IMG/VR virus record: IMGVR_UViG_3300020595_000171 | Coordinates: 1-26,179 of that record | DNA from: a virus | DNA: 26,179 nt | Direction: 5' to 3' (one strand) | In this document: positions 2,517 to 25,921 of the stretch, piece after piece | How the letters are laid out: each line of letters starts with the position of its first letter | Position numbering within the stretch: the stretch's first letter is position 1 | Position numbers and translations under genes: made by a program | The notes under the pieces: model-generated | What the model was told of the DNA's origin: nothing | What the model saw: only the letters and a program-made list of their open reading frames with translations | Database searches by the model: none

Positions 2517-2710
2517 TGGCTAAAGGCGACAAGAACTGCGAGTGTAACCGACGGGCATGCAATAATGCTCCCGCCATACACTTCAACCGATCCACAGAGA
2601 AATTTTATTGCACTCCATGTGCTCGTAAAATCAACTCTTATCCTGAAAACGAAAATGTCTGTGCATGGCCAACACGTGCAGATTTGAACCAAGACGGTAC
2701 ATTAAAATGA
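2516..2710 (+). CDS. Small zinc-binding-like phage protein, 64 aa
   Basis: Contains several cysteines in a zinc-site arrangement: CECNRRACNN at the N-terminus and FYCTPCARKIN in the middle (about residues 31-41). I recognise the pattern of a short basic start, then FYC-x2-CA-x2-IN, from small conserved proteins of T4-like and other large marine phages, but no function is known to me. The start overlaps the upstream stop (TAATG), and its own stop overlaps the next start (ATGA at 2707-2710), so it is tightly coupled in the operon. Confidence 0.66.
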   Translation: MAKGDKNCECNRRACNNAPAIHFNRSTEKFYCTPCARKINSYPENENVCAWPTRADLNQDGTLK

Positions 2711-3438
2711 AATTTAATATCCCAGAAATCAAAATGAAGTACCCAACCTACATCGTAGGCGGATGGGTCCGAGACAAAGTTATCGACCCAAGCTCATGCC
2801 CTAAGGACATTGATCTTGCAATGGTCGCTCCCGACTTCAAGTCAATGCGTGAAGCAGTCATTGCGGCAGGTGGAGAAATCTATCTTGAAACGCCACAGTA
2901 CTTGACGATCCGATGCATGATCCCAGAGCTTGGTGCAGTTGATGTTGCACTTACACGTACTGACGGTGAATACACTGACGGACGTCGTCCTGACGAAACT
3001 CACATTACAGACTCGATTGAAGACGATCTGTCTCGTCGTGACTTCACATGTAACGCAATTGCAGTCGACGTTTCTAACGGACACATTGTCGATCCATTCG
3101 GCGGTGTTGCTGATGCACAAGATAAGATTCTTCGTACTGTTCGTAATGCCCGTTCACGGTTTGAAGAAGACTACCTTCGCCTGTTCCGTGCACTTCGGTT
3201 TGCAATCACAAAGGAATTCTCACTTGACTGTGAAATCGTTGCAGCAATGCACGACCGCGAAATTTGCAGCGGTATCAAGAATATCTCGAAGGAACGTATT
3301 CGTGAAGAAATGCTTAAGTGCTTCAACCACAACACGTTCACGACTGTTGGATACTTAAACGAATACTCAAATCTCCTCTATTGGATGTGCCAAAAGGGTG
3401 TATCCTTGAAGCCTACACTCGAAAAACTAAAGGTATAA
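2707..3438 (+). CDS. CCA-adding / poly(A) polymerase head-domain nucleotidyltransferase
   Basis: A 243-residue class II tRNA nucleotidyltransferase-type protein. Visible motifs are GGWVRD (18-23), the metal-binding DID of KDIDLAMV (34-36), RRDFTCNAIAVDV (about 116-128) and DPFGG. The neck motif EDYLRLFRALRFA follows at about 157-170, and SGIKNISKERIREEM after it. Family members repair or add the 3' CCA of tRNA, or add poly(A). It has the full head and neck but is much shorter than the roughly 400-residue bacterial enzymes, so the tRNA-binding body and tail are reduced. ATG 2707 is used because it overlaps the previous stop. No tRNA gene is in this window, so it may act on host or distant phage tRNAs. 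The family call is strong; CCA versus poly(A) activity is not decidable. Confidence 0.88.
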   Translation: MKFNIPEIKMKYPTYIVGGWVRDKVIDPSSCPKDIDLAMVAPDFKSMREAVIAAGGEIYLETPQYLTIRCMIPELGAVDVALTRTDGEYTDGRRPDETHITDSIEDDLSRRDFTCNAIAVDVSNGHIVDPFGGVADAQDKILRTVRNARSRFEEDYLRLFRALRFAITKEFSLDCEIVAAMHDREICSGIKNISKERIREEMLKCFNHNTFTTVGYLNEYSNLLYWMCQKGVSLKPTLEKLKV

Positions 3439-3439
3439 A

Positions 3440-3835
3440 ATGGAACAAGAAAAACGCAAACAAGTCTATACTGTTGATGCTATTGGAGAGATAACAAGAC
3501 CATACGACATCGTCGTAATGACGGAGCCTGGAAATAGTCGAACCGCAGGAATCCAGATTGGGTTGATTGCGAATGGCACTAAGACTGGAGCACAGATCTT
3601 CTCATTGACGGAGATTGCCAATCGTCAGCGGATGGTTGAAGAATGTCGTAAGAACGGACAGGGCGATAATTGGTATGAGAGGTATCTTGAGACAGCATTT
3701 ACGAAACCATCTTGTCGCCCGTCCCATGCATACATCAAGCATGAGTTCAAGCGTCCTGATATGGTCGACCAAGATTTGTTCAATCAAGTTGTGAAGGCTA
3801 TCACAAATTACCTATACACTCAAGGAGAAAAATAA
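3440..3835 (+). CDS. Hypothetical early protein, 131 aa
   Basis: No family recognised. The first half looks beta-rich (YTVDAIGEITRPYDIVVMTEP, then AGIQIGLIANGTKTGAQIFSL). The second half is basic and helical (NRQRMVEECRKNGQGDNWYERYLE) and ends in a helix LFNQVVKAITNYLYTQ. There is no signal or membrane segment. An AAAGG ribosome-binding site lies 6 nt before ATG 3440, and the previous stop is one base away. It lies between the nucleotidyltransferase and the exonuclease, so a nucleic-acid-related role is possible but not shown. Confidence 0.65.
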   Translation: MEQEKRKQVYTVDAIGEITRPYDIVVMTEPGNSRTAGIQIGLIANGTKTGAQIFSLTEIANRQRMVEECRKNGQGDNWYERYLETAFTKPSCRPSHAYIKHEFKRPDMVDQDLFNQVVKAITNYLYTQGEK

Positions 3836-3836
3836 C

Positions 3837-4409
3837 ATGAAGTTTGGATTTATTGATACTGAAACTACAGGAGCAGGTTCTGAAAAGAAATGTTCCATTT
3901 GGCAAATCACTCTAATTATCACTGATGAGTTGCTTAATGAGATTGACCGAATCAATCTGAAGTTCCGTCCGCGTGAAGGTTGTGTCCTTGAAGAAGGCGC
4001 TTTGGAGAAGACAGGCATGTCCATTGAAAAGTTCCGTGCGTTGCCAATGACTTATGATGGTGCCTATACCGCACTTATCTCTTTCTTGGAGAAGCACATC
4101 GACCGATTCAACAAGACTGATAAGCTGCAATTTGTTGCTTACAATGCTCAGTTTGACGCTCGTTTTATGCGTCAGTTTTTCATCGACAACAACGACAATT
4201 ACTACGGCTCGTGGTTCTTCCACCCGCCAATCTGTTTGATGATGCAGGCTGCTTGGATGACTCGAAAGGTTCGTGATAAGTGGGCAAGTAACTTCCGTTT
4301 GGAGTCGTTGTGTAAAGCAGCTGGCATTGAGTTCGACGAAGAGAAAGCACACGATGCTCTCTACGACGTTGAAAAGACGATCGAGCTGTATAAGTACTTC
4401 GACGAATAA
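3837..4409 (+). CDS. DEDDh 3'-5' exonuclease (DnaQ-like)
   Basis: A 190-residue protein with all three exonuclease motifs. Exo I is FIDTETTG (D7, E9). Exo II is in VAYNAQFDARFM (about 100-111). Exo III is AHDALYDVEKTIELY (about 170-184) with the His-x4-Asp pattern of the DEDDh subgroup. Such enzymes remove nucleotides from 3' ends of DNA or RNA, as proofreading subunits or stand-alone RNase T/DNase-like enzymes. Length and lack of other domains point to a stand-alone enzyme. GGAG lies upstream of ATG 3837, so this start is well supported. It is the last gene before a strong terminator (4450-4478). Together with the CCA-adding-type gene it may process RNA 3' ends, but DNA substrates are equally possible. 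Confidence 0.88.
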   Translation: MKFGFIDTETTGAGSEKKCSIWQITLIITDELLNEIDRINLKFRPREGCVLEEGALEKTGMSIEKFRALPMTYDGAYTALISFLEKHIDRFNKTDKLQFVAYNAQFDARFMRQFFIDNNDNYYGSWFFHPPICLMMQAAWMTRKVRDKWASNFRLESLCKAAGIEFDEEKAHDALYDVEKTIELYKYFDE

Positions 4410-7415: not shown

Positions 7416-7440
7416 TGGTTCAAAATTGCTAAATACAAAT

Positions 7441-8478
7441 ATGAAAAGAATAGTTATAGATTTCGACGATACCATCTCGTTTACAAAGAATCGGGACTGG
7501 TATAATGCTGAACCCAATCGTCCTCTGATTGACAAAATGCGTCAGCTTCATTTAGACGGTTGGCAGATTGACATTTTCACTGCTCGCGGCAGCATTTCGT
7601 GCAAGACACGCGCTGAAGCTGACAAGAAATATCGAGGTGAAATTGAGGAATGGCTCTTGACTCACAAAGTGTCTTACAATTCACTCTCATTCGACAAACC
7701 GCTTGCAACCTACTACGTTGATGATAAAGCTATGCTCCCATCTGAATTTGTTGCTGCAGATTTGCATGATTTACAAGGTGGGCTTTCAGGTGCTGAAATT
7801 TATACTGATGGCACTCATGTTTTCAAGGATGATCCAAACGTCTTTGCGGTTCAAGAATGGTTTGAGAAAGCTGAAGCTATCGGATTGAAGGTTCCTAAAG
7901 TTGAGACTGTTATCGGCAATACAATGACTCTCAACTACATTGATCACATTCCCAACTATATTGAAGAGCATCCACAACGCGCTCTTGGGTTGATCATTGA
8001 GAAGCTTGATCTGATGGGTCACACTGATAGCTACACAAGTCATTTTATGAGTAATTACACTATCAACATTCAAAGTCACTTAAGTAACGCAGCAGGGATT
8101 TTTCCAGCTGGTCTATACACTGCTCTAATGAGAATTGCACATCAGCTTGAAGTTGGCACTTTCTATCACGGCGACTTCGGTGTGGGCAACATGCTTTTTA
8201 CCGAAGACAATGAATTGTTTCTCATTGATCCAATTCCCCACAAGTTCAGTTGCACAGAAATTGATGCTGCAAAGTTCCTTGCGTCATTGTTGCTTTTCCG
8301 TCGCATGACTGTAACGTCTGACACGTTTATCTTCTACAAGAAAATGCTTAAAGCTTATTTGGGTCTAACTGGTAGCGATGCACTTGAGGTGTTGATCGCC
8401 TGTGAAGTTCTTCGTGTTCACAAATACTCAAACGATAAAGATAAAGTAGAGGAGGTTTTCAAAAGTGTTTTTAAATAA
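7441..8478 (+). CDS. HAD phosphatase-small-molecule kinase fusion
   Basis: A 345-residue two-domain protein. Residues 1-110 are a HAD-type phosphatase: DFDDT (7-11 region), IFTARGS (motif II) and YYVDDKA (motif IV), similar to small capsule-biosynthesis HAD proteins. The rest is a choline/aminoglycoside kinase-like domain: GAEIYTDGTHVFKDD near its start, catalytic HGDFGVGN at about 243-250, and LIDPI at about 262-266 as the metal-binding Asp. The protein could phosphorylate a small alcohol and dephosphorylate another intermediate. The next gene, overlapping by 14 nt, is a cytidylyltransferase, so a CDP-activated product is the natural guess. ATG 7441 is chosen over a TTG at 7426. GCTAAATA sits 6 nt before it, a weak match to a late promoter. 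Confidence 0.78.
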   Translation: MKRIVIDFDDTISFTKNRDWYNAEPNRPLIDKMRQLHLDGWQIDIFTARGSISCKTRAEADKKYRGEIEEWLLTHKVSYNSLSFDKPLATYYVDDKAMLPSEFVAADLHDLQGGLSGAEIYTDGTHVFKDDPNVFAVQEWFEKAEAIGLKVPKVETVIGNTMTLNYIDHIPNYIEEHPQRALGLIIEKLDLMGHTDSYTSHFMSNYTINIQSHLSNAAGIFPAGLYTALMRIAHQLEVGTFYHGDFGVGNMLFTEDNELFLIDPIPHKFSCTEIDAAKFLASLLLFRRMTVTSDTFIFYKKMLKAYLGLTGSDALEVLIACEVLRVHKYSNDKDKVEEVFKSVFK

Positions 8479-8920
8479 GAAAGATATCGCCAAGAAAGTT
8501 GGCAAACCGATTGACGAGGTTGTGGTGGGATTCACGGCATCTTCCTTCGATTTATTTCACTCAGGTCATCTTGTTATGTTGCAAGAAGCAAAGGACTTAT
8601 GTGATTACTTGATCGTTGGTCTACTTGTTGATCCAACAACAGATCGTGCTACAAGCAAGAACAAACCAGTCCAATCTGTATTTGAGCGGTATATCCAATG
8701 TGCTTCATGCCGCTTTGTTGACGAAGTAATTCCCTTTGGGAGTGAGAAAGATTTGGTTGATATGATCCTCACGATCAATCCTGACATTCGCATTGTAGGT
8801 GAAGAATATAAAGACACCGACCACACAGGAAAAGGTCTTTGCCCAATTCACTACAACAAGCGACGTCATTCATTCTCTTCAACCGAACTTCGCGATCGCG
8901 TCGTCAAAGCATCACAATAA
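8465..8920 (+). CDS. TagD/RfaE-type cytidylyltransferase
   Basis: A 151-residue nucleotidyltransferase with the HxGH signature in FDLFHSGHLVMLQEAK (about 30-45) and the C-terminal SSTELR motif (about 139-144), both contacting CTP. Family members make CDP-glycerol, CDP-ethanolamine or related activated heads, or ADP-heptose. GTG 8465 is strongly supported by a perfect AGGAGG 10 nt upstream, one of the few strong ribosome-binding sites in the window. It overlaps the HAD-kinase gene. Substrate is unknown. With the upstream kinase it forms a plausible two-step activation path (phosphorylate, then attach CMP), as in phosphocholine- or phosphoglycerol-decorated surface glycans. Confidence 0.85.
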   Translation: MFLNKKDIAKKVGKPIDEVVVGFTASSFDLFHSGHLVMLQEAKDLCDYLIVGLLVDPTTDRATSKNKPVQSVFERYIQCASCRFVDEVIPFGSEKDLVDMILTINPDIRIVGEEYKDTDHTGKGLCPIHYNKRRHSFSSTELRDRVVKASQ

Positions 8921-8937
8921 CTTATATAACTAATACT

Positions 8938-9039
8938 ATGGCATTCTTATTAGCAGCCTTAGGACTAACAACTAGTCAGCTTGTAAAACTGTTGGCTATT
9001 GGTGCAATCGCATTCGTATGCGTTGTCTTTTCTCTCTAA
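8938..9039 (+). CDS. 33-residue single-pass membrane peptide
   Basis: ATG 8938 opens 33 codons, almost all hydrophobic (AFLLAALGLTTSQLVKLLAI, then GAIAFVCVVF), long enough for one or two tight membrane segments. It lies between the cytidylyltransferase and the epimerase with short gaps and on the same strand, so it is probably translated with them, although no ribosome-binding site is visible. It may be a small membrane-localising or toxic peptide; no family is recognised. Confidence 0.42.
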   Translation: MAFLLAALGLTTSQLVKLLAIGAIAFVCVVFSL

Positions 9040-9047
9040 ACAATACA

Positions 9048-10076
9048 ATGAAAACAAAAATTCTAATCACTGGAGGCTACGGCTTCATCGGCACAAATCT
9101 TATCAACCAACTTGACAGCGACCTGTATGAAATTGCAGTCCTCGACAACTCAAGCCATGGACAGTTCCATGAGGGCATCCATAACAAATGTTCACGCATC
9201 TTTGATGTGGATATTCGCGACCGAGATCATGTCTTCGATGCGGTCAACCACTTCCGACCAGATATCACTTTTCACTTTGCAGGTCTTGTCTCAATTTATG
9301 ATTGCCACAAGAATCCACATGAGGCAGTAGATACGAATATCACAGGATCAATCAATGTCTTCGATGCTTTGCTGCAATATGAATGCCCGCGTGTCATCTT
9401 CTCTGAAACCTCAGCGGTCTATGAAGATTCTGAATTGCTACACAGCGGTTACCACGAAGGTCAGTCTGACCCACGAACGATGTATTCTTCAACTAAGGCA
9501 GCAGTTGCAACTCTTGCTGAATCGTATCGAAAAACACGCGGTCTTGAATATACCGCACTTCGTTACTTCAATGTTGCTGGTCCTATTCAAGATTACAAAC
9601 GGACAGTACCGCCTCTCTTTGCAGGTGTCGCACTTCGATTACTTGGTGGCAACAATCCTATCATCTTTGGTGATGTTACTCGCCGCCGTGATTTCATTCA
9701 CGTTGACGACGTAAACGCATTCCACATGCTTTGCATCTTCAACCCAGAACAGACAACAGGACAGACATTCAATCTTGGGACAGGTACTTCAAATTCACTG
9801 AATGAGATTTGTGAGATTGTTCACACCTACTTGATTGCTGAAGATCTTATTCCATGTCAGGCATTGATCTATGACAAGATGCCCGAGATCAATGGTGAAG
9901 CTCATACCATCTATGCCGACATTCGTAAGGCACAATCATTAGGATGGGAACCTAAGCACCATATTGGGTCACAGATTGCTGATACGATCAATTACCTACT
10001 TGAAGAAGTTAAGAGTGGGAGTGTCGATCCTAAGACATTCATGACCGACCTTAACACCGACGCAGTAAAAATCTAA
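9048..10076 (+). CDS. NAD-dependent epimerase/dehydratase (UDP-glucose 4-epimerase-like)
   Basis: A 342-residue extended SDR enzyme. It has the Rossmann motif GGYGFIGTN (near residues 8-16), HFAGLVSI after the third strand, SETSAVYED, the catalytic YSSTK (Y-x3-K), RYFNVAGP and RRDFIHVDDV. This is the GalE/WbpP-like pattern, so it interconverts or modifies nucleotide sugars in the cytosol. Full family length with no lost catalytic residue. ATG 9048 gives the start closest to the Rossmann motif. It overlaps the next gene by one base (TAATG at 10074-10078). It probably supplies a sugar donor for the two downstream glycosyltransferase-like proteins. Confidence 0.9.
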   Translation: MKTKILITGGYGFIGTNLINQLDSDLYEIAVLDNSSHGQFHEGIHNKCSRIFDVDIRDRDHVFDAVNHFRPDITFHFAGLVSIYDCHKNPHEAVDTNITGSINVFDALLQYECPRVIFSETSAVYEDSELLHSGYHEGQSDPRTMYSSTKAAVATLAESYRKTRGLEYTALRYFNVAGPIQDYKRTVPPLFAGVALRLLGGNNPIIFGDVTRRRDFIHVDDVNAFHMLCIFNPEQTTGQTFNLGTGTSNSLNEICEIVHTYLIAEDLIPCQALIYDKMPEINGEAHTIYADIRKAQSLGWEPKHHIGSQIADTINYLLEEVKSGSVDPKTFMTDLNTDAVKI

Positions 10077-11203
10077 TGCTTGTAAGTGATAATAGACCTG
10101 CTATCCTAGTATATATCAACACGAATATTACTGGAGAATCAAAGCACAACCTACGACAGTCACTTATGTTCTTGAATGAATATAAGGATAAGTATCGCTT
10201 GATTGTGTTCTCTATGAACAAGACAGAGCGCTTTCTGCAGTCGCTGATTGAAGACGCCAACTTGAAGTTTGATGAAGTCATCTGTAAAGGATATGAATAT
10301 TGGGATGACTTTGTGACAAACTACAAGTTCGACACTTGGGCGCAGTTCATGGATGAACGTTATTATCTCGACGAGTTGGAAAATGTTGAGCATGTTGTTT
10401 GCGTTAAAGGCCTGTTATCAAAGCAAGGTAGGATTCAACGTGACCTTCCACACTTCAATGACAAAGTTGTGGAAGGTCACGCGAACATTAAGTTCGTGTC
10501 TAACTCGCGTCAGATCGCTGGGTTCTTATCAATTCTAAAGTTGTGCAAGATTCGTAACTTGCCGCTGCACGAAATGATATACGACACTCAAGAAGCAAGC
10601 GCTGCACAGATTGAGGATGCTGAAATCCGTCCTGATAAAATCTATTCTTACTTTTTGTATGACGTCAAGGATTATGGATACCGTCGTCTTGACTCTTTCA
10701 ACTATGCCCACACGTATTATCCTGACGCAGGTTTATGGAAGAAGGATATTGATATTACGATGGCGTATGTTGCTGTTACTAAAGATCGTTCAAAGATCAA
10801 TGAAAGAGTTCATGAGATGTTTAGCAATCTTGAACAGATCTTTCCAAACAGCAGGTTGTCGCGTGAACACGGAAAGCTTCAAATGTCTCGCCCTGGCTAT
10901 ATGCAACTGATCTGCCGATCAAAGTATACACTGATCATCCCTGCGTATAATCCCAGAGAGATGTCTATCTTCCGCTTCATCGAATCTATCAACCGTGACT
11001 GTCTACCTCTAATCACTGAGGACGTGTTCACCGATGATTTCATCAGAACATACGATTTAGATATTGACAAAGTGAATCGTATTAGTGTAAAATATGACTG
11101 CTCAAACTTTCGAGCATTTACTGAAGAAGAACGTATCGACCTGATCTGTTACTTTAAACACAAAGTGTGCCGCGTCACTAAACTATTAGAAATACCTTTA
11201 TGA
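10076..11203 (+). CDS. Glycosyltransferase-like protein (exostosin-like C-terminus)
   Basis: A 375-residue protein. The N-terminal 120 residues look like a Rossmann-type domain (PAILVYINTNITGESKHN and later strands). About residues 275-325 contain CRSKYTLIIPAYNPREMS followed by FRFIESINRDCLPLI. This resembles the exostosin/GT47-type signature (S-K/R-Y/F-x-L-x-P, then a RF-x-E-x2-x-G/D-C-x-P-V/L-I pattern), which binds the sugar nucleotide. It is coupled to the epimerase by a 1-nt overlap and to the next gene by ATGA (11200-11203). It likely adds one sugar to a fibre or envelope glycan; donor and acceptor unknown. Confidence 0.58.
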   Translation: MLVSDNRPAILVYINTNITGESKHNLRQSLMFLNEYKDKYRLIVFSMNKTERFLQSLIEDANLKFDEVICKGYEYWDDFVTNYKFDTWAQFMDERYYLDELENVEHVVCVKGLLSKQGRIQRDLPHFNDKVVEGHANIKFVSNSRQIAGFLSILKLCKIRNLPLHEMIYDTQEASAAQIEDAEIRPDKIYSYFLYDVKDYGYRRLDSFNYAHTYYPDAGLWKKDIDITMAYVAVTKDRSKINERVHEMFSNLEQIFPNSRLSREHGKLQMSRPGYMQLICRSKYTLIIPAYNPREMSIFRFIESINRDCLPLITEDVFTDDFIRTYDLDIDKVNRISVKYDCSNFRAFTEEERIDLICYFKHKVCRVTKLLEIPL

Positions 11204-12399
11204 ATATCGCAATTGCTAAAATGGGAAAGTCTGTACTTTTTAACAAGAAAAAGTGGGGACCAATCGGTGGGGATGGAGAAGCACCAATTTATTTTGAAAA
11301 TTTGATTCGTAAGAATCCGCAGCACACATTCTTCTTAATCGGTCGCTCTGATTTCCAACGTCTTAATCCTGACGACCAAGACCGTATTAATGAGCACGGC
11401 AACCTCGTCGATTGCTTTGCTGACTTCAGCATTAAGACGTCAACAGCTGTTGAGTTCATTGACAAACAGTGCGCCAATATCAAGTTTGATTGTGGTATTA
11501 TGATGGCAGGACCACTTGGAACAAACACTGTCCAGGGCAAGAGTCGTTTGATGAAAGATCCAACCAAACTTGCATCTCCTATCATGATGCTTGCAAATTA
11601 TGCAGGTCCGACGTTGTCAGTTATTAATGACCACAAGTTTCCATACCTCATGGTAGTTAACGACCCGCGATTCTTTCCTACGCAATGCCGTGATCTTATG
11701 CACTTGCCCGCTAAGGTTCTATCACAGTTCAATGAGTCAATCATCCAAAAGACACGAACAGCGTATGACAATGCAACAATCCTCGAATATCCACTTGAAG
11801 GTGAATATGGCGCAGTTGAAACGATCCGATTAATTGATCTGCCAAAACCTGTAACAGGTCTTGGTGCGTTCATGGTTGAAGAAAAGAAGCGTGTCGCTGA
11901 AAAGGATATCAAGTTTCTTGTTGTTCTCAACGAAGGTTTGCCATCTCGTTATAAGGTACTCAAATCAGCGATCCTTGATCATGTTGACGACGTCGACATT
12001 TATGGCAAGTGGAATCCTGAGACGATTGGTGATGATCCACGATTCAAGGGATCAATCAAATACGAGGAGCTGCAATCAATCTTGCCACGAGTGAAGTATT
12101 CGTACTGCATTCCTATCAAAGACGGTTGGGTTACTTCTAAATTCTGGGAGATGATTGAGCACGGCATTATTCCTTTTCTACACAAAACATATGACGAACA
12201 AGACAACTTGAAGGTGCCATCGTTTTTGCGTATTCGTGACAGTAAAGATCTTGCTCAAAAGATTGAGGTATTAGAGAGCGATCCTAATAAATACAATCAA
12301 CTGCTCTCACATTTGAAAGCAATGATTCAACCTGAATTCGTCACAGGCGATTACCTCAATAAGGTAACAATGTCTGCACTTGATGAGATTCTCTCATAA
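11200..12399 (+). CDS. Glycosyltransferase-like protein (GT-B type, tentative)
   Basis: A 399-residue protein starting NIAIAKMGKSVLFNKKKWGP. The middle contains IKFLVVLNEGLPSRYKVLKS (about 232-251), and the last third has the GT-B-like flow: VDIYGKW, then KGSIKYEELQSILPRVKYSY, then GWVTSKFWEMIEHGIIPFL. The end (IRDSKDLAQKIEVLESDP, then a helix) is typical of GT-B C-termini. No DNA- or virion-type feature is present. Overlap ATGA with the preceding gene shows coupling. Its stop TAA lies inside the CATAAATA late promoter of the tail-fibre gene, so the glycan operon abuts the adhesin operon with no gap. The family call is based on fold-like flow and context only. Confidence 0.5.
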   Translation: MNIAIAKMGKSVLFNKKKWGPIGGDGEAPIYFENLIRKNPQHTFFLIGRSDFQRLNPDDQDRINEHGNLVDCFADFSIKTSTAVEFIDKQCANIKFDCGIMMAGPLGTNTVQGKSRLMKDPTKLASPIMMLANYAGPTLSVINDHKFPYLMVVNDPRFFPTQCRDLMHLPAKVLSQFNESIIQKTRTAYDNATILEYPLEGEYGAVETIRLIDLPKPVTGLGAFMVEEKKRVAEKDIKFLVVLNEGLPSRYKVLKSAILDHVDDVDIYGKWNPETIGDDPRFKGSIKYEELQSILPRVKYSYCIPIKDGWVTSKFWEMIEHGIIPFLHKTYDEQDNLKVPSFLRIRDSKDLAQKIEVLESDPNKYNQLLSHLKAMIQPEFVTGDYLNKVTMSALDEILS

Positions 12400-22904: not shown

Positions 22905-22937
22905 AAAGTGCATTCAGTAATGGGTGCACTTTTTTTT
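22905..22937 (+). terminator. Terminator after gene 32
   Basis: AAAGTGCA (22905-22912) pairs perfectly with TGCACTTT (22925-22932) around a 12-nt loop, and a T-tract runs to 22937. It lies between convergent genes. On the other strand the hairpin lacks a T-run. Confidence 0.9.
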
Positions 22938-22944
22938 GGGTCAC

Positions 22945-24381
22945 TTAAAAGTCATGAACCACGCTCTGCTGTGGGAATCCGTTGTTATTGACCACAGTCA
23001 TGTTTGAGTTCTTCGTTGAGTTATCACTCACATTACTGATAGGAACAACTGTTGCCTGAGAACCAGCATTGCTTTGTCGTTGTGCAGTGTCATTAACGTA
23101 TGCTTGCGCCAACTGTGACTGTTGAGTTGATTTGTTTTTACCAATTTGTGGTATAGCTTGCTCAGCTGGAGTTTTAGATCTAACTGTAATTGGTGATTCA
23201 ATGTCTTCACCAGTCTTCTTATTAATACCTGCGTACTTGTAGATAGATTCAGGAATAGCCTTTGCGGTTAGACCAGCAATACTTGTATACCACTTCTTCC
23301 CACTCTTAGGGCGAGGTAAAATGCTTTTAAGCAATGCCTTCATAACGTCATTGATCTTATCACTAAAGTCAGACACGTTAAGCATGTTTCCAATTCCATC
23401 CGCAGCACTTGATAGCATTGATTTGAGTGTGTCAATAGGACTGCTGATTGCCTCATAGATCTTGAATCCAATGTCTCCCAACCATTCACCTGCTGTTCCT
23501 AGCCAGTTGAGTAATGTCATGAAGCCATCTTTGAAATTCATTTCAGCAAGCATCGACTCAAGTAAATCGAATCCAAGCATGCCCGCAATCTTTTTGCTTA
23601 GCCATAGGATAATATCGACAGGCCATCCAAACATTGTTGACACGAAATCAGTGAAACCTAATTTGAATGCTTCAAAGGGCCCAACCATGTCCTTCTCCTT
23701 CATAAATGTAAGTATGCCGCGAAAAATTCCAGCGACTACAGTTAGTGGGAATATCACACCTTTGGTAAAAGCTTTCATTGTTGATAAGAATCCCATCAGA
23801 CCACCGCCGCCAGTAAGTAATGGGACGATGGTGCCACTAAAGAATGTGACTGTTGCTGCAACAGCACCCCATGCCTTTTTAAGATGTCCAGCGAGATCCG
23901 CAATCATGCCGCCAATCTGAGTTTTCTTGCCAAATTCTAACAACTTCTTACCGCCTCTCTTTGCTGCGTCCTTCAGTCTGGCCTTCGCTGCCTCACGAGC
24001 ATCTTCTCCTTCTTGCAAATCATCTCCAGCTTCATCTCGCTCACGTTGCTTGAATATACCAAGGATACCACCAAGGCGGTCACCAAGTAAAGCCAGACCA
24101 GTCTTCAAGATCTCTTGAGTCTCTTCCTCAGCAGCAACAACGTCATCGTTTGAGTTAATGACTGCTTCAGCAGAATCATTTGTCACGTCTTCAACCAACG
24201 CAGTCATTGGTTGGATAGAGTTCGACAAAGACAGCTTCAGTTCTTCAATCAGTTCGCCAAGGAACAGGAAACCTTCTTCAAAGATCGGTTTAATATCGAG
24301 CGCGACATTCAATGCCTCGTTCTCTATCATATTTGATTCCTGAAGTTCTTCAACAACTGATGTAAATGCACCTTTAGTCAT
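22945..24381 (-). CDS. Tape-measure / gp29-like tail length protein
   Basis: A 478-residue, largely helical protein. Residues 1-100 are helical with acidic repeats, and 105-145 are a charged coiled segment (QRERDEAGDDLQEGEDAREA). About 160-310 is hydrophobic with glycine-rich segments (FFSGTIVPLLTGGGGLMGFL, PLTVVAGIFRGILTFM, WPVDIILWLSKKIAGMLGFD). After about 395 a Gln/Asn/Ser-rich tail ends VVNNNGFPQQSVVHDF. This helical-hydrophobic-Gly profile is typical of tape measures. The upstream frameshifting chaperone pair supports it, since those genes directly precede the tape measure in tailed phages. T4 gp29 (590 aa) is the functional counterpart. At about 1.5 angstrom per residue it would set a tail of roughly 72 nm. 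It starts on a leaderless late mRNA. Confidence 0.68.
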   Translation of the reverse strand: MTKGAFTSVVEELQESNMIENEALNVALDIKPIFEEGFLFLGELIEELKLSLSNSIQPMTALVEDVTNDSAEAVINSNDDVVAAEEETQEILKTGLALLGDRLGGILGIFKQRERDEAGDDLQEGEDAREAAKARLKDAAKRGGKKLLEFGKKTQIGGMIADLAGHLKKAWGAVAATVTFFSGTIVPLLTGGGGLMGFLSTMKAFTKGVIFPLTVVAGIFRGILTFMKEKDMVGPFEAFKLGFTDFVSTMFGWPVDIILWLSKKIAGMLGFDLLESMLAEMNFKDGFMTLLNWLGTAGEWLGDIGFKIYEAISSPIDTLKSMLSSAADGIGNMLNVSDFSDKINDVMKALLKSILPRPKSGKKWYTSIAGLTAKAIPESIYKYAGINKKTGEDIESPITVRSKTPAEQAIPQIGKNKSTQQSQLAQAYVNDTAQRQSNAGSQATVVPISNVSDNSTKNSNMTVVNNNGFPQQSVVHDF

Positions 24382-24386
24382 GCAAT

Positions 24387-24394
24387 TATTTATG
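24387..24394 (-). promoter_or_regulatory. T4-type late promoter CATAAATA for the tape-measure gene
   Basis: On the - strand, CATAAATA-ATTGC-ATG puts the predicted start (6 nt after the last A) exactly on the A of ATG 24381. It contains the TAA stop of the upstream -1 frame, as the 12395 promoter contains its upstream stop. Confidence 0.82.
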
Positions 24395-25294
24395 AAGACT
24401 TCTGGTTTTTAATTCGATCGTTCTCTTCCTTTACGTGCTGAATAAGCAACGAAACATAAATTTCGCGTTCAAAAGGTAACATATCGTCCAGCTCTGACAA
24501 AGAGTAGCCATGATGTTGCATCATTACGAAGTTCATTCGGTAATGATTCTCCAGACTCTCATGACAAAGCGCTACCCTAAAAAAGATTCGAGCCCTTTCA
24601 AGACGATCTTATTTTCATATCCACACTTTGAACATTTCCAAGTATGAGTATACTCCATAGATGGTTGGTTGGACACGTATTCTTGAATCTTCTTTAGCTG
24701 CCCTGCAGTCATAGAACCAATAAACTCATCAAGTTCAGCCTTTGGCACATCCTTAACATCCCACACATCTTCAGCATCAAAGATGTTGACAATGGCTGAA
24801 CGGATGAGTCGTTGAATAGTATCAGGCGAAAGTTTTTTCATGTCCTGCTCATTCATTGTCTGAAGGATAGTAGCAGGAATGTGCTTCAATGTAACACCTA
24901 GCTTGTCGTTGAGACGAACGACAGGATCACTCTTCTCGCCTGCTGGATATACAAACTCAATATCCTCAATAGAGATATCAATTGTCTCCTCTTGATCACA
25001 GCCTTCACGCCCACACTTAAGTGTTACTTCAATGTTCTCACCCATCGACTTTGAACGCAACTGTAGGAAGATGAACTCGAAATCATATAGCGTTAGATCA
25101 TTTGAATCAAAGTCACCAATAATACAGTTCTCAATCAACTGCATGATATTTTTGGTGATGACTTTAATATCACCTGTCTCCATTGCGATAAGCAAAGCCT
25201 TCTCCTCTTTAACAAGGTAAGGACGGAATGTAATTGACTTGCCAGTAGATGGCAATGTTGTTGTGTAGTGGGTTGTTTCTAATTTTGGGAGCAT
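24390..25294 (-). CDS. Predicted -1 frameshift fusion of gp26-type protein with small C-terminal domain (about 301 aa)
   Basis: Translation of the gp26-type gene reaches the zero-frame codons TCT TTT TTA (24586-24578), which contain the heptamer T TTT TTA. A -1 slip would bypass the TAG at 24572 and continue FFRVALCHESLENHYRMN, then FVMMQHHGYSLSELDDMLPF, then EREIYVSLLIQHVKEEN and end at TAA (24392-24390). The added 62 codons resemble the short T-type domain of frameshifted tail chaperones (HGYSLSELDDMLPFERE pattern, then a charged helix). An internal ATG at 24536 with GGAG 12 nt upstream could also give the last 48 residues alone. This gene pair precedes the tape measure, as lambda G and GT do. 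The frame arrangement is read directly; the slippage itself is inference. T4 has gene 51 after 26, and whether this domain is its counterpart is open. Confidence 0.68.
24572..25294 (-). CDS. 26: Baseplate hub / tail chaperone gp26-type protein (unshifted, 240 aa)
   Basis: Matches the T4 gp26-type baseplate family: the start MLPKLETTHYTTTLPSTGKS, the helical ALLIAMETGDIKVITKNIMQ, and an internal zinc-type pair CGREGC. A C-terminal zinc ribbon (WKCSKCGYEN, about 225-234) pairs with the earlier cysteines. T4 gp26 (208 aa) is needed for assembly of the central hub. The zero-frame product ends KGLESFLG. TATAAAAT directly abuts the ATG, which fits no standard spacing, so its promoter is uncertain. 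In this position it probably acts with the tape measure as an assembly chaperone rather than as a permanent structural part. Confidence 0.8.
   Translation of the reverse strand: MLPKLETTHYTTTLPSTGKSITFRPYLVKEEKALLIAMETGDIKVITKNIMQLIENCIIGDFDSNDLTLYDFEFIFLQLRSKSMGENIEVTLKCGREGCDQEETIDISIEDIEFVYPAGEKSDPVVRLNDKLGVTLKHIPATILQTMNEQDMKKLSPDTIQRLIRSAIVNIFDAEDVWDVKDVPKAELDEFIGSMTAGQLKKIQEYVSNQPSMEYTHTWKCSKCGYENKIVLKGLESFLG
24578..24584 (-). promoter_or_regulatory. Slippery heptamer T TTT TTA (-1 frameshift site)
   Basis: The heptamer fits the X XXY YYZ rule in the correct register, 3 codons before the zero-frame stop. An AAAGGG lies 8 nt upstream (possible internal SD stimulator). The nearest strong downstream stem (8 bp, 24540-24547 with 24520-24527) begins about 30 nt after the site, further than usual. 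Confidence 0.7.
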
Positions 25295-25312: not shown

Positions 25313-25921
25313 CTACTGGCTATTCTGTACCTCAGCAGGGACACTTGTATTACTATTACCTGTTGATGAATCCTTGAACTTCTCATAAGTAAATGTTACA
25401 GCAATCTTCGACACAACGTCTGAACCTGCAGCATCAAGGTCAAGCGAGTTGACACCAACCGGCCATGCATTCTCTAAAGTAACATCAAAGACAACATTGT
25501 CGTTACGGTCCAACTGCTCAATTAATAAATCAACTGCATAGTCATCACGATATGCCACAGTCCAATCATCTTTTGACACAATTTGGTCATGCCATTGCTT
25601 GAAGAACTTAACAATCGAGAACTTGCGTGTGATAGGGAATACCATGCTCACATCTTCATAGGTTCGAATGTTTGGATACTTGGTTGGGTTGCGGAATGTC
25701 TGGTTCTCAAACGAACCGATCTGGGAACCAGGGATTTGGACAGTCTCAGGCTGAAGCACAAGGTGATTGCCTCCAGTTGGTCGCTCATCGAGATCATTTA
25801 GCTTAATGCCCTCAACACCAGTGAATGAGATCTTAGGTGCGAATGTGACTCTAAAGCGATTAGGATTGATCGGTCCCAATTCGTTTGCAATCTGTGCTTT
25901 GAAGTTGTCTATGCTTGACAT
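25313..25921 (-). CDS. Tail-tube-fold protein (gp54/gp19-type baseplate tail tube)
   Basis: A 202-residue protein with the flow of T4 gp19-like tail tube proteins. It runs from NPNRFRVTFAPK through VQIPGSQIGSFENQTFRNPT (the attachment-type strand before the loop) and FPITRKFSIVKFFKQWHDQI to the end strands VTLENAWPVGVNSLDLDAAG and VSKIAVTFTYEKF, a characteristic tube-family C-terminus. It is longer than T4 gp19 (163) and shorter than gp54 (320). Its place among baseplate genes, rather than next to the sheath, suggests a gp54-type tube initiator rather than the main tube. It lies 18 nt upstream of the gp26-type gene. Confidence 0.7.
   Translation of the reverse strand: MSSIDNFKAQIANELGPINPNRFRVTFAPKISFTGVEGIKLNDLDERPTGGNHLVLQPETVQIPGSQIGSFENQTFRNPTKYPNIRTYEDVSMVFPITRKFSIVKFFKQWHDQIVSKDDWTVAYRDDYAVDLLIEQLDRNDNVVFDVTLENAWPVGVNSLDLDAAGSDVVSKIAVTFTYEKFKDSSTGNSNTSVPAEVQNSQ

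Follow-up and report, generated by a model that had tools for sequence, protein, structure and literature searches.

The window, a stretch of 26,179 bases read directly from IMG/VR virus record IMGVR_UViG_3300020595_000171, carries on its minus strand, in order, genes for a tail-tube-type protein and a gp26-type protein, an extension of the latter in the −1 frame, and an open reading frame (ORF) of 478 aa. The following features were assigned at this locus:

25313–25921, minus strand: tail-tube-type protein (gp19/gp54 family), adjoining gp26 on its upstream side; PF06841 at E 3.1e-8, phrog_45 (tail tube) at E 8e-32
24572–25294, minus strand: gp26-type protein of 240 aa, putative short chaperone form (TAC-N, G-like); PF12322 and phrog_150
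24593–24599, minus strand: Shine–Dalgarno (SD)-like GAAAGGG, candidate frameshift stimulator, 8 nt upstream of the heptamer; read directly
24578–24584, minus strand: slippery heptamer T TTT TTA in the zero-frame register, its final codon one codon ahead of the gp26 stop
24393–24578, minus strand: −1 frame extension of 62 aa, a gp51-type C-terminal domain (putative TAC-C, T-like); phrog_634, phrog_150 and hhalign
24520–24547, minus strand: predicted RNA hairpin, its loop containing the ATG at 24536 of a 48-aa ORF
22945–24381, minus strand: tape-measure homologue of 478 aa, by homology to ORFs of relatives

The 240-aa product matches PF12322 at E 1.5e-52 (178.8 bits; cut-off 24.5) and the baseplate hub family phrog_150 at E 3.3e-55. 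Its gene ends AAA GGG CTC GAA TCT TTT TTA GGG TAG. The initial annotation had described an in-register T TTT TTA at this 3′ end and a −1 frame that stays open for 62 codons beyond it, and direct reading (24578 to 24393) bears out both. The extension begins RVALCHESLENHYRMNFVMMQHHGYSLSELDDMLPFERE... and stops at a TAA at 24390–24392. It had also been placed 9 nt ahead of the tape-measure-like ATG; the proximity stands, with the spacing corrected to 8 nt and the ATG at 24381.

To place this junction among relatives, 160 distinct junctions were collected from IMG/VR contigs and cultured phages, the latter sampled from Kyanoviridae, Schizotequatrovirus, Pootjesviridae, Emdodecavirus, Chakrabartyvirus, Otagovirus, Menderavirus and DLP6. 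The initial annotation had asked whether the heptamer, its register and the −1 frame are conserved: T TTT TTN occurs in the same register, 0–2 codons ahead of the gp26 stop, in 157 of the 160, and a first set of 80 IMG/VR relatives retains, without exception, the T run, the stop and the open −1 frame. None of the 16 T4-type comparison loci, which include a few weak or duplicate matches, has the motif in register, and because this register is shared by 157/160 relatives against 0/16 T4-type loci we judge the heptamer to be more than a product of chance. Elsewhere within gp26 the same in-frame motif is found at 6 of 16,625 codon positions. In the unambiguous T4-type gp26 genes the Phe residues are for the most part written TTC TTT or just TTC, following a codon that lacks a final T; T4 gp26 itself retains the FF residues as GAG TTC TTT, which is not slippery. 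After clustering at 50% identity, the first Phe codon is TTT in 33 of 33 lineages (background 54%; log10 P −8.8) and the codon preceding it ends in T in every one (log10 P −9.1). Given the protein and codon usage, the combined probability of the heptamer's conservation is about 10^-18 over the 33 lineages, which are not fully independent, the P values being conditional on amino acids and usage.

Three of the 160 relatives lack the in-register heptamer: IME-SM1 and the Ackermannviridae phages VAP7 and YC. The junction reads GTT TTT CGC TAATG in VAP7 and GCT TTC ATG TAATG in Vibrio phage YC, both with a stop–start overlap; with these two Ackermannviridae lacking the heptamer, the frameshift arrangement is not universal. 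VAP7 retains GTT TTT CGC, and VAP7 and YC may reach the long form by another route. In IME-SM1 (3456–4298) the slip site is one T shorter than in Yut2 (3456–4217), a phage of the same genus, and the gp26 ORF continues in another frame. IME-SM1 was considered as a +1 case and rejected, since Yut2 has one extra T and the standard layout; the missing T is probably a sequencing error or a recent deletion.

Turning to the relation with T4, the extension matches phrog_634 (baseplate hub assembly catalyst, gp51) at E 9.7e-27, and also the final columns, 238–281, of phrog_150. T4 gp26 (208 aa) spans columns 14–235 of phrog_150 and T4 gp51 (249 aa) columns 13–280, the extension part included. As T4 gp51 covers this family past the end of T4 gp26, it corresponds to a gp26-like domain followed by an in-frame extension. 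Profile comparisons agree at both ends: hhalign aligns the extension with the C-terminus of T4-type gp51 (probability 96.1, E 3.6e-9), and gp26 aligns with the N-terminal part of T4-type gp51 (97.2%, E 4e-11). The initial annotation had named T4 gp51 as a protein with which the C-terminal domain might be compared; the relation proves closer, the extension being homologous to the C-terminal part of gp51. In T4-type phages the gp51 C-terminal domain occurs only as a fusion with a gp26-like domain, and the T4 genes for gp26 and gp51 are divergently arranged paralogues. We propose that T4 gp26 and gp51 are the short form and the long form, each with a gene of its own, and that a single gene would yield both forms here and in most relatives.

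The 478-aa ORF has no direct match in PHROG or Pfam and none in cultured phages. Homologues of it, 560–730 aa long, follow gp26/gp51 in relatives (BLASTP E as low as 4e-18); one of these homologues matches tape-measure PHROGs at 8e-11, and several cultured equivalents of the downstream ORF match tape-measure profiles. Complete downstream ORFs of this long class measure 410–1039 aa in relatives, and in roughly half of the complete loci the best neighbour of the extension is instead a 104–148 aa ORF. A conserved ORF of about 104–148 aa often separates the gp51 extension from the tape measure gene, as at four of the loci collected, and is absent in the window. Judged by these homologies, the gene order of tube-like protein, TAC-N, TAC-C and tape measure is that of lambda V-G-T-H. 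An AlphaFold model of gp26 (pLDDT 93) was used in a fold search, in which the HK97 tail assembly chaperone 2ob9 had the top probability, 0.66, with the others listed at 0.15 or below; by E value (1.1–1.4) the 2ob9 match falls short of significance. The TM score of 0.52 is normalised to 2ob9 chain A, with less than half of gp26 covered and E about 1. PDB sequence searches returned nothing relevant, and a fold search with a model of T4-type gp51 gave no match.

The locus is thus very probably a frameshifting tail assembly chaperone gene. The initial annotation had proposed that a −1 frameshift like that of lambda G/GT extends gp26 ahead of the tape-measure gene, and on the comparative evidence this is the best reading. 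The motif with its register and conservation, translation of the −1 frame, the homology to T4 gp51 and the gene order are all shown directly; that ribosomes slip here, how often they do so, and that the products act as chaperones is inferred. Most ribosomes would stop at the gp26 UAG to give the 240-aa short form (TAC-N), with a minority slipping −1 on U UUU UUA, bypassing the stop and reading 62 more codons to give a predicted fusion (TAC-NC) of 239 + 62 = 301 aa with the gp51 domain at its C-terminus. On the model of lambda gpG/gpGT, the tape measure protein encoded by the neighbouring gene would be coated with many copies of the short form and few of the long one. The C-terminal domain would recruit to it subunits of the tube or of hub initiation, and the two forms would depart before the tail is completed.

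Frameshifting at lambda G/GT is textbook knowledge. Lambda gpG/gpGT and P2 E/E′ likewise comprise a short and a −1 extended form encoded between tube-type and tape measure genes, and in lambda, too, the slip comes late in the short gene. In contrast to lambda gpG/gpGT, with which it shares no sequence similarity, the system described here uses T TTT TTN instead of the lambda motif, has a gp26 with a zinc-ribbon-like C-terminus and serves a contractile tail. Vladimirov and colleagues reportedly found in 2022 that frameshifting is retained in several T4-like groups and that the T4 group uses the separate genes 26 and 51.

A 2016 review described the tail chaperone frameshift as widely conserved except in T4 (PMC5009743). 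T4-like TAC genes were identified by Vladimirov, Gautam and Davidson (2022, Virology 566:9–15), as cited in PMC10885494 and PMC12846349; according to these citing papers, some T4-like phages have separate short and long TAC genes (PMC10885494), and TAC-N genes of T4-like phages are known to carry poly-T slippery sequences (PMC12846349). As far as the citing papers convey it, the gene pair and the reading are the same as ours, with gp26 as TAC-N and gp51 as TAC-NC, and, compared through those papers, the phage in the window is an uncultivated, divergent member of that set. In phage Adele (Vandenendeviridae/Andersonviridae), TAC-N likewise ends in poly-T (GTTTTT) with the −1 frame open, and the downstream ORF is likewise misannotated as a separate gene (PMC12846349), a likeness in arrangement. 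The T4-like TAC frameshift is therefore correct and, having been published in 2022, not new in kind. What is new here is an uncultivated member, a quantified constraint, possible stimulators and two exceptions; the gain over the published idea lies in extent, quantification and annotation. The T4 literature already records that gp51 is no component of the mature particle and counts gp26 as a hub assembly chaperone (PMC3004832), and the present finding offers a simple way to test the role, long unclear, of these two proteins.

A variant of the frameshifting reading is that some phages make both products, the fusion and a free gp51-domain fragment, the latter by coupling at an overlapping start in groups that have the overlap. 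Schizotequatrovirus Va3, Pootjesviridae phiM9, RHph_I1_9 and Menderavirus Yut2 combine such an overlap with an intact heptamer; the window, however, has no stop–start overlap, its nearest in-frame ATG lying 12 codons past the stop. We consider this variant unlikely, and it adds to the frameshifting chaperone gene without replacing it.

Alternatively, the extension could be a small cistron in its own right, translated from an internal ATG (24536, 48 aa) or through reinitiation past the gp26 stop. This would match the GenBank annotation of gp51, the ATG at 24536 has GGAG 12 nt upstream, and TAATG or TGATG stop–start overlaps occur in Va3, phiM9, RHph_I1_9, Yut2, VAP7 and YC. The ATG in the window, however, sits in the loop of the predicted hairpin, and starts across relatives are scattered: the first ATG of the extension falls at residues 3, 9, 14, 18, 19, 32 and others (counted from 0), and in 74 of 157 neither the upstream region nor the opening 12 codons of the extension contain an ATG, GTG or TTG. 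The stretch is conserved all the same. The extension measures 56–70 codons in every complete case, its homology reaches back to the first codons after the slip site, and within the start-free stretch pairwise substitutions number 1461, 705 and 2722 at positions 1, 2 and 3 of the −1 frame codons. By this pattern the −1 frame is open, translated and under selection from the slip site onward, with no conserved start of its own. The codons that follow the slip site and precede any possible start are therefore selected for the protein they encode, and a separate cistron cannot account for them. It would also leave the conserved in-register heptamer unaccounted for and sit poorly with the constant fusion of the gp51 domain to a gp26-like domain in T4-type phages, and we regard it as very improbable.

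Efficient RNA polymerase slippage usually needs a run of about nine. A frame change by the polymerase instead of the ribosome is hardly credible here: the run of 6–8 T in all relatives would serve either mechanism, but about half of the lineages have only six T, short for polymerase, the register and the T ahead of the initial TTT are both maintained, as expected of tandem tRNA slippage, and the SD-like element stands at a typical upstream distance.

With the frameshifting chaperone gene as the preferred reading, the SD-like element and the hairpin are leads as possible stimulators. Mean anti-SD duplex energy over 72 lineages peaks at the SD-like site, some 15 nt ahead of where the heptamer starts; the element is mostly set by conserved R/K/E-Gly-Leu residues, and its synonymous excess is modest (z −0.55 ± 0.14). 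The 91-nt stretch containing the predicted hairpin has a folding z of −2.14. Across relatives, RNA just downstream of the slip site exceeds protein-preserving codon shuffles in stability (z about −1.5 ± 0.18), an excess that fades at greater distance from the site. RNAalifold detected no structure shared by 71 ungapped downstream stretches, and an Rfam search gave no match. A conserved downstream hairpin is not claimed, as the commonest stem is only partly paired across relatives. Tentatively, there may be a composite recoding signal under selection, made up of an SD-like element about 8–10 nt upstream and a downstream hairpin that varies by lineage, with a third product (the free gp51 domain) in groups with the stop–start overlap and the Ackermannviridae possibly switched to that route.

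The extension is present in 558 cultured phage records. In the GenBank records of cyanophages and their relatives, five of which serve as examples, gp51 is entered as a separate CDS with inconsistent starts, and the S-WAM1 record misses it altogether; gp51 is joined to gp26 in none of the GenBank records inspected. Cyanophage gp51 has been reported at only about 20% of the usual length, without the first ~200 residues (PMC3037559). We propose that it appears short because the missing ~200 residues come from gp26, and that hundreds of marine T4-like phage records wrongly enter the C-terminus of a frameshifted gp26 as a 'short gp51'.

Elsewhere in the window, a strong terminator-like hairpin at 22905–22940, with a plus-strand T run after a gp32-like gene and A residues on its other side, lies between the convergent gp32 and tape-measure genes and possibly serves both. 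The run of genes at 7426–12399 resembles a sugar-metabolism cassette, with phosphoheptose isomerase-like and nucleotide-sugar epimerase-like genes beside proteins that have no PHROG matches. A tRNA nucleotidyltransferase-like gene (phrog_2244, 9.9e-48) occupies 2665–3438.
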